A DNA stretch of 64,000 nt. Origin: Clostridium thermobutyricum (lineage in GTDB: Bacteria; Bacillota; Clostridia; Ch29). Both the position numbers and the translations under genes were made by a program. The notes beneath the pieces were generated by a model. That model searched no databases and was not told where the DNA came from. It saw only the letters and a program-made list of their open reading frames with translations. How positions within the stretch are numbered: the stretch's first letter is position 1; each line of letters begins with the position of its first letter. The DNA lies in assembly GCA_016842005.1 (NCBI GenBank), contig JAENYD010000006.1, positions 1 to 64,000 on the forward strand. Reading direction: 5' to 3'. This document shows positions 45 through 36,029 of this stretch, in pieces.

Positions 45-851
45 TCAGCCCGGTATTTGGGGCAGAGGGTCTTCAGCTTCTTCCCCGGCTAACTGCTCGT
101 TTATATCTGTTTCCAGGCCCGTGAAATCCCTGTCCTGCGCATTTTCCTGCCGGATTTTTTCAAGCATTTTCTCTTCTATGTCAGCTATGGTGATTATTTT
201 CTCATTGCTCAGGCCCATGCTCTTTGTCTCTTTCTGTTTCAGGTATGCTTCCTTGTCTGTAAGGTACTGCTCCAGATCTACGCCTATCTGCAATGCGCAG
301 AGGTATTCGTCAAGGACCTCTTCCATACTGTCGAAATGGTCTTTCAGTTTGAGCATAAGGTATACAGCCGTTTTAAGGTCTATCTTTTCCAACAATATAC
401 AATAGGATGAATTATCAGGTGATGCATCGGTTAACCGGTTCGCCCGTGTTATTTCACCGAGCTGGAATATAACTCTTTCCGCAAGCAACCTGGCTTCGGA
501 TATTTCCTCACCGGTATAGCCCTCATCCTTTAACCGGAGTATGTAGTCTTCGCCGATACCGGATTGCTCAAGCAAACCGTACCTCTTATCCTTTTCATCG
601 TTTTCACCCGCTCCATAGCCTCTTAACATATCCAGTACTTCATTCCATGTCCTGCCGTTCTCTTTAAGCCTTATTATCTCTTCTACCTTCACACCGGTCA
701 TATTTGAAATGTCTGCAGCCACCCTCAGGGTTTCACTGTCCGGCTCGTTTCCAGGATTCTGTCCTATTACCTGGGTATTCATCAAAAATACAGGCAGTAA
801 CAGGGCAATACCTATCATTACAGCTACGTACTTGTAAAACGGTCTTTTCAT
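45..851 (-). CDS. Hypothetical secreted or membrane-anchored protein
   Basis: I do not recognise this 268-residue protein. Residues 8-28 form one hydrophobic segment after a basic start (MKRPFYKY), consistent with a signal peptide or N-terminal anchor. The rest is acidic and mostly helical in character, with charged heptad-like stretches near residues 60-130 and 190-240 and an acidic, proline-containing tail. There is no obvious enzyme motif. The start is supported by an AGGTGG ribosome binding site just upstream. It lies 33 bases downstream of the fibronectin-repeat gene on the same strand, so it is probably cotranscribed with it and may belong to the same cell-surface function. That link rests on position only. 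Confidence 0.7.
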   Translation of the reverse strand: MKRPFYKYVAVMIGIALLLPVFLMNTQVIGQNPGNEPDSETLRVAADISNMTGVKVEEIIRLKENGRTWNEVLDMLRGYGAGENDEKDKRYGLLEQSGIGEDYILRLKDEGYTGEEISEARLLAERVIFQLGEITRANRLTDASPDNSSYCILLEKIDLKTAVYLMLKLKDHFDSMEEVLDEYLCALQIGVDLEQYLTDKEAYLKQKETKSMGLSNEKIITIADIEEKMLEKIRQENAQDRDFTGLETDINEQLAGEEAEDPLPQIPG

Positions 852-883: not shown

Positions 884-2641
884 TTATTCTACGGTAAAGT
901 TTATATTCGTTTCACCGTCAATCTTTGAATTGAACAATACGGCCGATATTTCTCCCGACCAGGATGTGCCTGGAACTATACTCCTGTCTACCGCAAGTTC
1001 AATTCTTCCCGGTGTATATGTAACGTATATGTCTGAACCCGGGATTTTACCTCCGGTGATTACATCCTCTCCGGGTGTGAAATTGTACAGGTCAACTACA
1101 TCAAGCTCATCCGGATTATAGGTGACTATGAACTTCAGTTCTATAAAGTCCTGCACATTGGAAGCCAGCAGTGACAGTTCAAATGTCGTATCATTTGTAC
1201 ACTGCACCGTATAAGTGGGATTGGTAGTGCTTACAGTTATTGCCGGGCTCCACGCAGTCACTCCGGTAATGTTTTTTGCCCTTACCCTGTAGGTGTGGGA
1301 AGTTCCGGGCTCCAGTCCGTCATGAACATAGCTTGTATTCTCCCCGCTGTCCGTTATTTGACCGTCAATCTCCAGATCGTATCCCGAAGCCCCCTCTATC
1401 CTCTCCCACCTGAGCTCTATTGCATTGCTGCCTGCAAATGCCTCTATGCCTTGAGGTGCGTCAGGGGGATCAGGGAGAGTTGACAAGGCCAGTACTCCGC
1501 ACCATTGGCTCAGGCCTTCACTGTTTTTTACCTTAATTCTATAGCGGTGAAAAGTGTTCGATTCCAGCCCTGTATGCTTATATATTGTTTCCGTTCCGTT
1601 ATCTTTGAGTGTTCCGTCTACCTCCACGTCATATTCCACGTCGGGAGCCACTGCATCCCATGATATGGTTATTGAATCATTGGTTACAATTGCCACCATA
1701 TTTGTCAATGCAATGTTCCTATCGCCATCTTCAATATGAGGCAGAGTAGACATTGTCAGAGGACTGCTCCATTCACTCATACCGCTTATATTCCTGGCTC
1801 TCACCCTGTAGGTGTGCTGGGTGCCGGCATCCAGTCCACTGTGTACGTATAATGTATCGGTGATGTCTGTAACCACCGTACCATCCATTTCAATATCATA
1901 GCTTTCGGCATGAGGTACTTTGTACCATATTATTGTTACAGCATTTTCCTCGGATGTCCCCATCAGGTTTGTGGGCATATCCGGATTTTCAGGATGTGTC
2001 GTTACATCTATGGGAGCACTCCAGAGGCTTTTGCCTCCCCTGTTTTTCGCCCTTACCCTGTAGGTATGTCCTGACAGGGGTTCAAGTCCATCGTGAAGAT
2101 AGGTTGTATTGGCTCCGTTATCTATTATCAGGCCGTCCACCTCTATCTCATATCCCGTGGCCCTTTCCATCTCGCCCCATGATACGGTCACAGCATCTTT
2201 GGTTATCTGTGTAGTTATATTTACAGGCGTATCCGGTGGCAGTGCAAGGGTTGTACCGTTTACCTGTGTGCTGAACGCTGTTTCAGTTCCTGTATGGTTT
2301 CTTGCCTTTGCAGAAAAACTGTATGTGGTACCAGGGGTCAGTCCCGTAAGGGTTAACCTCTTATTGCCAAATGTCACCCATTCGGGAGCTGCTGTCAGTG
2401 TTCCTGTATGGCTTATATAATTGGTTCCCACCTTAATCTGGTACTCTGTTGATGAAGGATTGCTGTCTACCATACATATATCCAGTGATGTTTCCTGTTG
2501 GTTATTTATCTCAAGTACAGGGGTCTGTGCTTTTGTATATATCTGCTCTTCCCTGGTTGATATATGGCCTACTTTGTCCCTGGCTTCAAATTTTACAGTA
2601 TAATTGGTGTTCGGTGTCAGGGAAGTCCTTCTCGTCAGCTT
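884..2641 (-). pseudogene. 3' part of the giant fibronectin-repeat surface protein, out of frame with its 5' part
   Basis: This open frame begins just after an in-frame TAG (2642-2644) and has no ribosome binding site of its own. Its first in-frame ATG is at 2473, well inside a domain. It encodes the C-terminal half of a fibronectin type III (fn3) domain, one divergent fn3-like domain, four fn3 repeats of the same type as the upstream frame, and a final domain of about 110 residues. That last domain resembles a cohesin or related beta-sandwich, with a stretch similar to FIVTYNPDELDVVDL. The matching repeat type shows it was once the end of the gene that now stops at 2586. It would be made only by frameshifting or internal initiation. 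A sequencing or assembly error in repeats is also possible. Confidence 0.7.
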
Positions 2642-5600
2642 CTATGTCATAGCCTGTTGATCCATCCACTTCATCCCAGGTGAGCGTTATTTGGGTGGTT
2701 GTCGCTGTTGCGGTGAGATTTGCAGGTATGTCGGGCGCTGTCAGCTGTTCTACCGGTTCACTCCAGTCACTGGCTCCGTTCTCGTTTTTTGCCCTTACCC
2801 TGTAAGTATGTAAGGTGTTCGGAGCTAGCCCGCTGTGCACATAGGTAGTTGATGCACCATTGTCTATAACCTCGCCATCGACCTTTATATCATAGCCCGC
2901 AGCTCCATTTACCTCATCCCATGTTACTGTTATCTGAGTGCTTGTTGCTGTTGTACTAATACTTGTAGGTACACCTACAAGAGTAGCTACTGTTATGGCT
3001 TCACTCCAGTCGCCGGCAAAATCTCCGCTTTTCGCTCTGACCCTGTACACATGCCAGGAATTGGGCTCCAACCCTGTATGCACATAGGCAGTATCCATCC
3101 CATTGTCTACAATCTCCCCATCAACCAGTACATCATAACCGGTTGCACCCTCTACAGCATCCCAGCTTATGGTTATGGTAGTGCTTGAAACTGCAGCAGT
3201 TATGTTTGCCGGAGTTCCGAATAAGGTTGTCCGGCTGATTGTTTCACTCCAGTCTCCCGGTCCGCTGACATTTCTTGCCCTGACCCTGTACGTGTGTTGG
3301 GTATTGGGCGTCAGTCCGGTGTGTACATAGGTGGTGTTCAAACTGTTATCTATTACCTCACCATCCACTTCTATGTCATAACCTTCTGCACCGGCTACCG
3401 GGTCCCATGTAACCGTTATTTCGGTACTGGCAGCTGTAGCCTGTAGATTTGTGGGTTGACCGACCAGAGTAACCTTTGTTAACTGCTCGCTCCAGAGGCT
3501 TGTAATATCACCGTTTCTTGACCTGACTCTGTAAGTATGTTCAGTATTCGGCTCAAGCCCTGTATGGACGTATGATGTACCTGTGATATTATCAATTACT
3601 ACGCCGTCCACTTCAATATCATAGCCTGTCGCTCCGTAAACTTCGTCCCAGACCACTGTTATATCGGTACTTGTTACAGTTGCGCATAAATTAACCGGTA
3701 TAGATGGCAGCGTGGTTTCTGTAATCAGTTGACTCCAGTCACTTATGCCTTCCGGATTTTTGGCCCTTATCCTGTATGTATGAGTAGTGTTCGGCATCAG
3801 CCCGCTGTGCAGGTAACTTACAGCCGTAATATCCGTAACCAGATCACCATCGACCTCAATATCATAAGCCGTAGCTCCGGCTACAGCGTCCCATGTTACC
3901 GTTATGGAGGTATCTTCTACAGCAGCAACAACATTTGTGGGTGCCCCCGGCAGGGTTGTTTTTGCAATTACCTGACTCCATTTTCCAAAGCCGCTTGAGT
4001 TTTTGGCCCTTACCCTGTACGTATGCTGTGTATTGGGGTTAAGCTCCTCATGTATGTATTGGGTATTCGTTCCGGTATCTACCGGTGTACCGTAGACTTC
4101 TATTTCATACCCTGTTGCCCCGGTTACCGGATCCCAGGTAACAGTTATGGATGTGCTGGTTGCAGTTGCCAGGATATTATCCGGTATACCGGGCAGTGTC
4201 CATTTTTCCATCGGGCTTGTCCAGCTTCCGGTCACCGCACTGCTTCTTGCTCTTACCCTGTAGATATGCCGTGTACCCGGTGCCAGACCATCGTGGGTAT
4301 ATGTGGTATCCTCACCATTGTTAACAACAGTTCCGTCCACTTCTACATCATACTCTGCTGCACCGTATACAGGCTCCCATGACAGGGTCACGGTTGTCTC
4401 GGTAGCCTCTGCAGTTATATTTTCAGGTTTGCCCAGTAATGTCGTCCTTGAAACAGAAGGGCTCCAGTCACCTGCTATAATGCCATTTCTCGCCCTTACC
4501 CTATAAGTATGCAGGGTTCCGGGTACAAGGTTACTATGGGTAAAGTCAGTATTCACACCATTGTCATGTATAACTCCGTCTACCTCAACATCATAACCGG
4601 TTGCAAAACTTACTTCGTCCCATTCTACTTTTATTGTGGTCTCGGTTGGAGTTGTTGTAATGTTTTCGGGTATCCCTATGGGATATAGCTGGCTTTTCGG
4701 TATTATCTCCTTATCCTGGCTGAAACTTGACCAGAATAGTCTGGCCAGTGCTATGCCGTTACTCTCCCTGTATTCCATCCTTATATCATATTTCTCTCCC
4801 GCATTAAGCGCTATAGTTCCGTCCCTTTTGATCATGCTGTGGGCTCCCCAATCATCTATTAGCAGTTGATTATCTACCCACAACTTGATTCCGCCATGAG
4901 CCTCGATATAGAATGTATAGGTTTCCGAAAATCTTGGTTCTATACGACCCGTCCATCTTACCGAAAACTCAGATGCTTCAATACCGGGAGCAGGAGAGTT
5001 ATTCTTCCAGTCAAAGTTTACGCTTTCATCTATCCGGGAATGTTTATGATCTGTTAAATCCTGATTGTCATAATACTCACCTTTCAAGCCGGTTCCGCTG
5101 CCGGGTTCAGGTAATGTTGATTTTATTAACAGTGCACTCCAGTCCTTCGGACCGTCGGGTCTAATTGCTCTAACCCTGTAGGTATGCTGGGTGTTGGGCA
5201 TGAGATGCTCGTGTATATAAGTAGTATCCTGTCCATTGTCTATTATGATGCCGTCGGCCTCTACATCATAGCTCAGGGCCTCCGGCACCGGGTCCCACGT
5301 CAGAGTTATTGAGTTACTCGTTACTGCTGCCTGGAGATTGGTGGGTATACTGGACAGAATAACTTTGGTAAAGGTTACACTCCAGTCTCCTGCCCCGTTC
5401 TCATTTTTTGCCCTGACTCGATAGGTATGCTGTGTCCCGGGCATCAAGCCGCTGTGTACGTATATTGTATCCAGACCGTTATCTATTACATCACCGTCCA
5501 CTTCAATATCATAACCGGTTGCTCCGGTCACTTCATCCCATGTTAATGTAACTTCATCATCTACCGCTGCCGCATTTATATTCTGAGGTATACCTATTTT

Positions 5601-7139
5601 AGTTCTTTCTGTGTATATTGTGCTCCATTCGCCTGTAACTGCTGAAGCTTTTGACCTAACTCTGTACTCATGCTGAGTATCCGGTGATAAGCCGGTATGG
5701 ATATAAGTGGTGCTGTCTCCGTTATCAATTACCTCCCCATCTGCCTCAATATCATATCCGGCTGCGCCATCTACCTCATCCCAGGTTACGGTTACCGTTG
5801 TACTTGTTGATGTAGTGTTTATATCCCCAGGTATGCCAGGTACAAAAGGAGGATAAAGACGGTTTTTCGGTATTATCTCCTTATCCTGGCTGGTACTTGA
5901 CCAGTACAGCCTGGCTACAGCAGCACCATTGGTCTCGCAGTATTCCATTCTTATATCGTACTTTTCACCGGCATTAAGAGAGATAGCACCGTCTTTTTTA
6001 GCCATGTTATGGGCTCCCCAGTCGTCTATCAACAGCTGATTGTCTATCCACAGTCTGATGCCGCCGTGGGTCTCGGTATAAAAAGTGTAGGTCTCTGAAA
6101 ACTCAGGTTCCACTTTACCTGTCCACCTGACTGTAAAAGCGTTAGGGTCTAAAGCTTCATCAGGTGCATCACCTGCCCAGTGGAAGTTTACAGTTTCATC
6201 TATTCTGTTCAGCTTTAACTCTTCAAAATTGGTACCATTATAATACTCACCTGCCAACCCTATACCGGTACCTGTCTCTTCCAGAGTTGTAACCTGCAGA
6301 GCCTCACTTCTTTCGGATATGTTGTCGGCGGCATCAAAGGCTGCCACTTCATATGTGAATGTTGTAGATGACGATAAATTTGTGTCTTCGTAATACTCTT
6401 CATCGATTACCACTGCTATTTGTTGATTGTCTCTGTAAACTATATATCCTTCTACATCACAATCGTCTGTAGAACTATCCCATGACAAAGCAACTTCATT
6501 CTGAGTAATATTCTGAACTGTGAGATGCTGCGGTACCGTCGGAGGGGTTGTGTCTTCTTCTGGCTCAGATGGAGGCTCCGCCTCTGTTTCAATTGTAACA
6601 ATCTCAACATAGTTTATTACAGTTTGACCTTCTCCCGAAGAACCATTATCTATAGTCAATATCCCGTCGCTGATTTCTACGGTTTTTGTTTCCGCTTCAA
6701 ATTCGTCTGCATCTAATGTCAGGTCATCCCAGTAATTTACTCCTTCAACATTTATGGTATTTGTACTGCTGTATACTGCATCTCCTACGCTTACTGTTAC
6801 ATCGTAGTTGCCGTCTATCAGTTCTATCTCCCAAACCCCTCCACTGTGAAACCAGCATCCTGTATCCAGTCTGGAATCAGTTTTCTCATTTCTGTCAACT
6901 GCTACATCCGTATGATCTTCATTCCATCCATACTTATATCCGTTTCTACTTCCATAGGGTTCTCCAGAATCAGAAATATACCCGTTTGGAATATCAGCAT
7001 CTTCAGTTTGGAAATTTATTTTTATATCTGACTCCTGAGCATGAGCTGCACCATTTTGTTCAGTTAAACCAAAGTTAAAGTATGGTAATATTAGAAGCAT
7101 AGCCAACAAGCATGATATTAATTTTCTTGATTTTCTCAT
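2586..7139 (-). CDS. Giant secreted malectin/fn3/PA14 repeat protein, frame ends prematurely
   Basis: This is a secreted, probably cell-surface, adhesin-like protein of about 1,517 residues. The order is: signal peptide (MRKSRK plus a hydrophobic core), a malectin/CBM-like domain (about residues 35-180), one fn3 domain, a PA14 domain, three fn3 domains, a second PA14 domain, eight complete fn3 repeats and a truncated one. The repeats share a consensus with YDIEVDG, DNG, TYVHSGL, PNTQHTYRVRAKN and DWS blocks. The ATG at 7139 is chosen because AGGAGG lies just upstream; an earlier in-frame start would precede the ribosome binding site. The frame leaves the fn3 pattern after YDIEAD and stops about 16 residues later. 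The continuation is in another frame downstream. Expression is likely controlled by the cyclic-di-GMP riboswitch upstream. Confidence 0.85.
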   Translation of the reverse strand: MRKSRKLISCLLAMLLILPYFNFGLTEQNGAAHAQESDIKINFQTEDADIPNGYISDSGEPYGSRNGYKYGWNEDHTDVAVDRNEKTDSRLDTGCWFHSGGVWEIELIDGNYDVTVSVGDAVYSSTNTINVEGVNYWDDLTLDADEFEAETKTVEISDGILTIDNGSSGEGQTVINYVEIVTIETEAEPPSEPEEDTTPPTVPQHLTVQNITQNEVALSWDSSTDDCDVEGYIVYRDNQQIAVVIDEEYYEDTNLSSSTTFTYEVAAFDAADNISERSEALQVTTLEETGTGIGLAGEYYNGTNFEELKLNRIDETVNFHWAGDAPDEALDPNAFTVRWTGKVEPEFSETYTFYTETHGGIRLWIDNQLLIDDWGAHNMAKKDGAISLNAGEKYDIRMEYCETNGAAVARLYWSSTSQDKEIIPKNRLYPPFVPGIPGDINTTSTSTTVTVTWDEVDGAAGYDIEADGEVIDNGDSTTYIHTGLSPDTQHEYRVRSKASAVTGEWSTIYTERTKIGIPQNINAAAVDDEVTLTWDEVTGATGYDIEVDGDVIDNGLDTIYVHSGLMPGTQHTYRVRAKNENGAGDWSVTFTKVILSSIPTNLQAAVTSNSITLTWDPVPEALSYDVEADGIIIDNGQDTTYIHEHLMPNTQHTYRVRAIRPDGPKDWSALLIKSTLPEPGSGTGLKGEYYDNQDLTDHKHSRIDESVNFDWKNNSPAPGIEASEFSVRWTGRIEPRFSETYTFYIEAHGGIKLWVDNQLLIDDWGAHSMIKRDGTIALNAGEKYDIRMEYRESNGIALARLFWSSFSQDKEIIPKSQLYPIGIPENITTTPTETTIKVEWDEVSFATGYDVEVDGVIHDNGVNTDFTHSNLVPGTLHTYRVRARNGIIAGDWSPSVSRTTLLGKPENITAEATETTVTLSWEPVYGAAEYDVEVDGTVVNNGEDTTYTHDGLAPGTRHIYRVRARSSAVTGSWTSPMEKWTLPGIPDNILATATSTSITVTWDPVTGATGYEIEVYGTPVDTGTNTQYIHEELNPNTQHTYRVRAKNSSGFGKWSQVIAKTTLPGAPTNVVAAVEDTSITVTWDAVAGATAYDIEVDGDLVTDITAVSYLHSGLMPNTTHTYRIRAKNPEGISDWSQLITETTLPSIPVNLCATVTSTDITVVWDEVYGATGYDIEVDGVVIDNITGTSYVHTGLEPNTEHTYRVRSRNGDITSLWSEQLTKVTLVGQPTNLQATAASTEITVTWDPVAGAEGYDIEVDGEVIDNSLNTTYVHTGLTPNTQHTYRVRARNVSGPGDWSETISRTTLFGTPANITAAVSSTTITISWDAVEGATGYDVLVDGEIVDNGMDTAYVHTGLEPNSWHVYRVRAKSGDFAGDWSEAITVATLVGVPTSISTTATSTQITVTWDEVNGAAGYDIKVDGEVIDNGASTTYVHSGLAPNTLHTYRVRAKNENGASDWSEPVEQLTAPDIPANLTATATTTQITLTWDEVDGSTGYDIEADEKDFPDTEHQLYCKI

Positions 7140-7182
7140 AAGTATTCCTCCTATTAAAAAATACAATATTAGTCCATTAATA

Positions 7183-7217
7183 CAAAAAGCAGACAGCTCC
7201 AAGTTATACTGTCCGCT
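7183..7217 (-). terminator. Intrinsic terminator of the cyclic-di-GMP riboswitch expression platform
   Basis: Read on the minus strand, AGCGGACAG pairs with CTGTCTGCT (nine pairs, one G-U) and is followed by TTTTTG. It lies between the aptamer and the ribosome binding site of the giant surface protein gene. A competing hairpin, CGCTT/AAGCG just upstream, would sequester the start of the terminator's 5' arm, so it is a candidate antiterminator. Whether ligand turns transcription on or off cannot be read from the sequence alone. Confidence 0.8.
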
Positions 7218-7236
7218 TCATACAATAAGCGATCAA

Positions 7237-7330
7237 CTAAACTTAGCAGCCTGGCAGTCATAGAAATAATTCCTTTAGACCCATGGCTTTGCGCCCTTAT
7301 CTTTCGATAAGTTTGCCTTTTTAAGTCTAG
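7237..7330 (-). promoter_or_regulatory. Cyclic-di-GMP-I (GEMM-I) riboswitch aptamer
   Basis: The minus strand carries the conserved GEMM-I blocks in order: GGCAAAC, a hairpin CTTATC-GAAA-GATAAG capped by the conserved GAAA tetraloop, GGGCGCAAAGCC, GGGTCTAAAGG, a second hairpin, and ATGACTGCCAGGCTGC. The ends close in a nine-pair P1 stem, CTAGACTTA (7322-7330) with TAAGTTTAG (7237-7245), containing one G-U pair. These features define the cyclic-di-GMP-I class, which binds the bacterial second messenger and often controls motility or adhesion genes. The downstream terminator supports control of transcription elongation. Confidence 0.93.
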
Positions 7331-7349
7331 TAATTACTCTGTTTTTCAC

Positions 7350-7358
7350 ATTATAGCA
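7350..7358 (-). promoter_or_regulatory. Extended -10 promoter for the riboswitch and surface-protein gene
   Basis: On the minus strand TGCTATAAT (TG-n-TATAAT) lies about 12 bases before the P1 stem begins to be transcribed, giving a start near 7343. No good -35 box is visible at the usual distance, consistent with an extended -10 promoter. Confidence 0.6.
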
Positions 7359-35769: not shown

Positions 35770-36029
35770 CTTTAAAATAATTAAGCTCCCATCCCTGACT
35801 CCAGTCAGGAACGAGAGCTATCCCGCGGTACCATCCTAATTGCCGTAATACGGCCCCTTGCAAGTGATAACGGATACAACCGTCAGTATCTACTGGTATT
35901 TCGACACCGAGGCTCCGGGACTGCTTGGGCCGACCTGCTTCAAAGGTCTTCCAGCCATGGACCTTCTCTCTGGGAAAACGGTTTCGGCTTACTACTTCCC
36001 TTCACTGCCTTTATATCCATATAAGTTTA
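35770..36029 (-). promoter_or_regulatory. T-box leader of alaS with terminator
   Basis: The roughly 260-base leader has the T-box hallmarks: AGAGAGAAGG and GCTGGAAG in Stem I, the T-box sequence TGGTACCGCG (35824-35833), and a terminator whose arms AGCTCTCGTTCCTGAC and GTCAGGGATGGGAGCT (35784-35819) are followed by a T-rich stretch. It senses uncharged tRNA and allows readthrough when that tRNA is scarce. The downstream gene predicts tRNA-Ala; a GCC at 35911-35913 is a possible specifier but I did not verify its place in the specifier loop. Confidence 0.92.

Follow-up and report, generated by a model that had tools for sequence, protein, structure and literature searches.

Here we describe a c-di-GMP-I (GEMM-I) riboswitch in the leader of a gene for a putatively secreted PA14/fn3 protein of Clostridium thermobutyricum. 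Folding of the leader indicates that it probably acts as a transcriptional OFF switch, in which the P1 helix of the aptamer and an antiterminator are mutually exclusive. The stretch of DNA analysed (the window, 64,000 nucleotides) is the first 64 kb of a 106-kb contig, in a genome of 2.62 Mb on 55 contigs. The closest relatives among the genomes compared are Clostridia and Bacillota assemblies with 69-71% identity in alanyl-tRNA synthetase. The window also holds a T-box leader (RF00230, 122 bits) before the alanyl-tRNA synthetase gene (35804-36014, minus strand).

Architecture of the leader

The leader lies on the minus strand and carries, from 5' to 3', a -10 element, the P1 5' strand, the aptamer, the P1 3' strand, a terminator, a U-tract, a ribosome-binding site and the ATG (Table 1). 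An Rfam scan, the check proposed in a preliminary description of this DNA, returned a match to RF01051 at 83.4 bits against a gathering score of 35 (E 6e-15). The match spans model positions 1-87 of 87, which confirms the GEMM-I class claimed there and a complete aptamer. The P2 helix is a UCGAAAGA hairpin with GNRA tetraloop closure, and 41 invariant aptamer columns are common to the leader and each of the genome's five further GEMM-I RNAs. RF01051 is also the best clan match. The leader does not qualify as the c-di-GMP-I-GGC variant (RF03167), to which three other GEMM-I leaders of the genome are assigned. The P1 stem was earlier counted as nine pairs; the stem stands, but it consists of 10 contiguous pairs, one of them G-U.

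The extended -10 element reported earlier is present and well placed. The motif occurs six times in the window versus 4.1 expected, which alone is not significant, and its value lies in its position rather than in its rarity. No good match to a -35 element was found at 17 bp spacing. The downstream intrinsic terminator of the same description was borne out by folding (-14.7 kcal/mol) and by its U-rich tail. A simple promoter and terminator scan listed no convincing promoter and did not report the terminator, which it missed because the 12-nt loop is too long.

Table 1. Features of the riboswitch locus (positions in the window) and the other GEMM-I leaders of the genome
Feature	Location	Strand	Sequence or remark
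Extended -10	7350-7358	(-)	TGCTATAAT; exact consensus, correctly placed
Transcription start (expected)	~7342-7344	(-)	
P1 5' strand	7322-7331	(-)	ACUAGACUUA; 10 contiguous pairs with 7236-7245
c-di-GMP-I (GEMM-I) aptamer	7242-7327	(-)	RF01051; P2 with GAAA tetraloop, P3, conserved core
P1 3' strand	7236-7245	(-)	UAAGUUUAGU; overlaps antiterminator 5' arm, 7240-7246
Antiterminator (predicted)	7199-7246	(-)	CUAAGUU (7240-7246) with AACUUGG (7199-7205), enclosing CGCUU/AAGCG (7227-7231 with 7214-7218)
Intrinsic terminator hairpin	7187-7218	(-)	AAGCGGACAG-N12-CUGUCUGCUU; 10 pairs, loop 12 nt
U-tract after terminator	7179-7188	(-)	UUUUUGUAUU
Ribosome-binding site	7147-7152	(-)	AGGAGG; ATG at 7139 is 7 nt downstream
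Target ORF	2586-7139	(-)	1517 aa, ends at out-of-frame stop; 2 PA14 and 12 fn3 (Pfam)
Frame break in one fn3 repeat	~2613-2636	(-)	35-nt shortfall
Continuation of target gene	884-2593	(-)	Another frame; 4 more fn3, weak cohesin-like C-terminal domain
Secreted 268-aa orphan protein	45-851	(-)	32 bp downstream of target gene
GEMM-I leader before flgB flagellar operon	C45		
GEMM-I leader before M23 peptidase	L001:1269-1986 (G000:C54)		
GEMM-I leader with PAS-GGDEF-EAL gene	L009:3227-6622 (G000:C21:155226-158621)		
GEMM-I leader before surface protein	C6		Two fn3 and SLH
RHS-repeat surface gene after a GEMM-I leader	L011:3158-7341 (G000:C18)		

Exclusive folds and the sign of control

The transcript was folded at increasing lengths under three conditions: P1 forced, P1 forbidden and P1 left unconstrained. 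The CUAAGUU arm of the antiterminator contains the UAAGUU of the P1 3' strand, and its partner AACUUGG lies in the terminator loop. The antiterminator also occupies the 5' arm of the terminator, and extra pairs extend to the AGCU that opens the terminator 3' arm. When P1 was forced, the pair probability of the terminator is 0.70 at length 157 and 1.00 from 160. With P1 forbidden, the antiterminator has a probability of 0.96-0.97 at lengths 151-157 and 0.84 at 160, and the terminator only 0.00-0.06 at the lengths where the antiterminator holds (to 160). The antiterminator keeps the terminator from forming as far as the U-tract. From this pair of outcomes an OFF switch is predicted.

In the unconstrained RNA, P1 is preferred to about nt 150, the antiterminator is the minimum-energy fold at lengths 151-155, and the terminator prevails from nt 160. 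At nt 154 the antiterminator stands at 0.91 versus 0.06 for P1, and the switch point lies at nt 151-157. The prediction is thus an interval of a few nucleotides in which RNA without ligand can abandon P1 ahead of terminator completion, and in which the ligand-bound RNA should not. In the full-length transcript the terminator state is lowest in energy even without ligand (-53.5 vs -46 kcal/mol), so OFF control must be kinetic and depends on the antiterminator forming and persisting in time.

The preliminary description had suggested a possible antiterminator, and as a predicted alternative fold it is real. When the linker and loop were shuffled and P1 and both terminator arms were kept (n=300), only one shuffle gave an equally strong effect and the mean effect was 0.02. 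The antiterminator is therefore not an accident of composition, and the small mean indicates that for this leader the fold test is not inherently biased. No ortholog of the leader close enough for covariation on the antiterminator was found.

The sign of control, earlier left open, can now be put in the form of a model. At high c-di-GMP the ligand would lock the aptamer and the P1 helix and make the P1 3' strand unavailable. The intrinsic terminator would then form, and RNA polymerase would halt about 45 nt upstream of the start codon. When c-di-GMP is low, the P1 3' strand (within CUAAGUU) would instead pair with AACUUGG in the terminator loop, with the additional CGCUU/AAGCG pairing. The antiterminator would hold the terminator 5' arm, allowing readthrough and production of the secreted PA14/fn3 protein, which under this logic would be made in the low-c-di-GMP, motile state.

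The class I switches of C. difficile are transcriptional OFF switches (PMC11477304). In one of them, Cd1, the T and H strands form the terminator and the T, A and H strands the antiterminator (PMC9262584). Cd1 precedes the flgB operon and has the same aptamer class (RF01051). The leader described here resembles it in strand plan: its antiterminator combines T and part of H with the P1 3' strand (A). In the energy model this antiterminator draws on the terminator 5' arm as well as the P1 3' strand and is exclusive with P1, and an intrinsic terminator lies between the aptamer and the gene, as in the Cd1 type. Switching distances are also similar: the Cd1 antiterminator begins at nt 134 with the decision at 148, versus about 148-157 here. 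Cd1 is an OFF switch, whereas our leader is one by prediction only, and the target of Cd1 is flagella rather than a PA14/fn3 secreted protein.

GEMM-I switches do not all have one sign: Bc2 of B. thuringiensis is a proven ON switch (PMC4933901). Bc2 also combines a c-di-GMP-I aptamer with an intrinsic terminator before a large surface protein, the collagen adhesion protein Cap, although Cap differs from the protein here, in which PA14 and fn3 domains occur without a recognised anchor. By analogy, ligand could block the terminator, and the surface protein would be made in the high-c-di-GMP sessile state in keeping with the usual biology of adhesins under c-di-GMP. The folds speak against such ON control, which we regard as unlikely. 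P1 has no overlap with the terminator and hence cannot block it. The terminator rises to certainty with P1 forced and drops with P1 forbidden, and the opposite effect appears at no transcript length. A family-wide fold test with a duplex-based P1, covering 35 leaders with a nearby terminator from this and other Clostridia genomes, led to rejection of an ON sign as well; 29 leaders were OFF-like, five ambiguous and one ON-like, on a scale uncalibrated on proven ON switches. The genome's own flagellar GEMM-I leader is among the five ambiguous cases.

The PA14/fn3 gene and its frame break

The fn3/PA14 composition noted before is confirmed by Pfam. Both families score above their gathering thresholds, PA14 (PF07691) at 190.9 bits over two stretches (singly 102.3 and 99.8 bits) and fn3 (PF00041) at 311.8 bits over 12 stretches. 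The N-terminus is signal-peptide-like. The domain at residues 37-187 is unassigned, its weak similarity to a galactose-binding family (E 0.0026) falling below the cut-off, and a structure prediction of the N-terminal domain without an alignment was too poor to use (pLDDT 43.5).

Both PA14 domains are close to the solved PA14 pair of C. thermocellum RsgI3 (PDB 6qe7; E 3.5e-79), and the matches to 6qe7 and to a second PA14 pair, 6qdi, far exceed any other. The RsgI3 pair is reported to bind pectin (PMC4711584). These two observations make a glycan-binding role outside the cell likely, and the protein probably binds a plant-type polysaccharide or another extracellular glycan. Unlike the tandem module of RsgI3, the two PA14 domains here are separated by three fn3 repeats. 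The Pfam scan found no RsgI anti-sigma domain in the target, so that only the PA14 modules are shared with RsgI. No relatives of the target were found in named GTDB genomes, those within its family have nothing but fn3 repeats in common with it, and none was found beyond the shared fn3 and PA14 modules.

A giant protein had been proposed. The repeat-rich domains are there, but a single intact giant ORF is not, as the frame is lost after 1517 codons, a break that the preliminary description missed. The main fn3 repeats are spaced 81 aa within each run. The segment from YDIE to PNT measures 25 nt in the last fn3 repeat versus 60 nt in 11 other repeats of this type, and the shortfall of 35 nt throws the frame. 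It may be either a true deletion or an assembly collapse of near-identical repeats. In the continuation of the gene the cohesin-like C-terminal match (E 0.0046) is below the Pfam cut-off. Neither Pfam nor NCBIfam gave a match for the orphan protein downstream, and 59 related genomes contain no relative of it; from the 32-bp spacing its gene is probably in the same operon as the target.

The frame break raises the alternative that the switch is idle or vestigial despite its intact aptamer, with regulation irrelevant to a target already broken by the 35-nt loss. The RHS gene under another GEMM-I of the genome is broken as well, by three frame changes, and Bc1 is a conserved GEMM-I leader that fails to respond, or hardly does so (PMC11218506). 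We think this quite unlikely, because the -10, aptamer, P1, terminator, antiterminator, ribosome-binding site and 1517-aa ORF are all intact and the break may stem from misassembly of near-identical repeats. The broken gene may still give a useful product, and we continue to favour a working OFF switch.

The neighbouring penicillin-binding-protein gene is conserved in 6/6 genomes of the family, and no GEMM-I was found beside it in the five others, which argues that the riboswitch locus is lineage-specific.

Ligand and the GEMM-I RNAs of the family

The leader shows every RF01051 feature that sequence can test, and we infer that it would bind c-di-GMP. In the RF01051 alignment it keeps the equivalents of two ligand contacts (Vc2 numbering), G20 in AAAAAGGCAAAC and, in GGCUGC, C92, whose pairing partner is the second guanine. 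With five GGDEF and two EAL domains encoded in its genome, this organism probably produces the signal. That the element senses 3',3'-cGAMP (GEMM-Ib type) is scarcely credible: although the two folds resemble each other and cGAMP-sensing members initially carried a c-di-GMP annotation (PMC9262584), it is a G20A change that favours cGAMP (PMC6274999), the leader keeps G rather than the A of 3',3'-cGAMP riboswitches at this position as well as the C, and GGDEF and EAL enzymes are encoded in the genome.

Six GEMM-I RNAs, including the leader described here, are present in the genome (Table 1). The genome has just two EAL proteins; one is the PAS-GGDEF-EAL protein directly after one of these RNAs, and through this riboswitch c-di-GMP may feed back on its own metabolism. 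The riboswitch of the M23 peptidase has two tRNA genes and an FMN riboswitch nearby. With the split RHS gene and the target, two GEMM-I-controlled large surface genes are broken in this genome.

Five further genomes of the family contain 30 GEMM-I RNAs. The genes after them include flagellar operons, chemoreceptors and surface or secreted proteins (SLH, camelysin-like, CBM2, transglutaminase-like), among others. In one relative, tandem c-di-GMP-I aptamers precede a transglutaminase-like protein (L081, G005:C86:1488-1843), and in another, repeated GEMM-I copies precede LytTR-like proteins (L084 and L085; G002:C1, C35). A third relative, G003, has an fn3/kelch/RHS ORF of >5800 aa split over two overlapping contigs (L063, reverse, and L062/L092; G003:C21, C37), and no GEMM-I was found on those contigs.

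The preliminary description considered the target and its architecture worth describing; that they are new is weakly supported, since c-di-GMP-I control of large adhesins has already been published. Besides the Bc2-cap case (PMC4933901), a class I riboswitch precedes CD2797, a calcium-binding adhesion protein of C. difficile (PMC11477304). CD2797 also is adhesin-like but differs from the PA14/fn3 target, and its riboswitch belongs to a class described there as transcriptional OFF. The novelty lies in the pairing of such a switch with an RsgI3-type PA14/fn3 protein and in the OFF prediction; no new mechanism is involved.

As a tentative picture, somewhat doubtful as a whole, a glycan-binding, RsgI3-like PA14/fn3 protein would be switched off by c-di-GMP through a Cd1-type terminator and made together with flagella in the motile state. 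It would belong to a small regulon of c-di-GMP-I OFF switches over flagella, the M23 peptidase, the PA14/fn3 protein and the RHS protein, with the GGDEF-EAL riboswitch as feedback. The clear two-state fold makes the leader a convenient test template for termination control. For the family, a putative carbohydrate-binding surface protein joins the c-di-GMP-I regulon of these Clostridia, and if the OFF prediction is true, this would be a further case of c-di-GMP lowering an adhesin-like protein.
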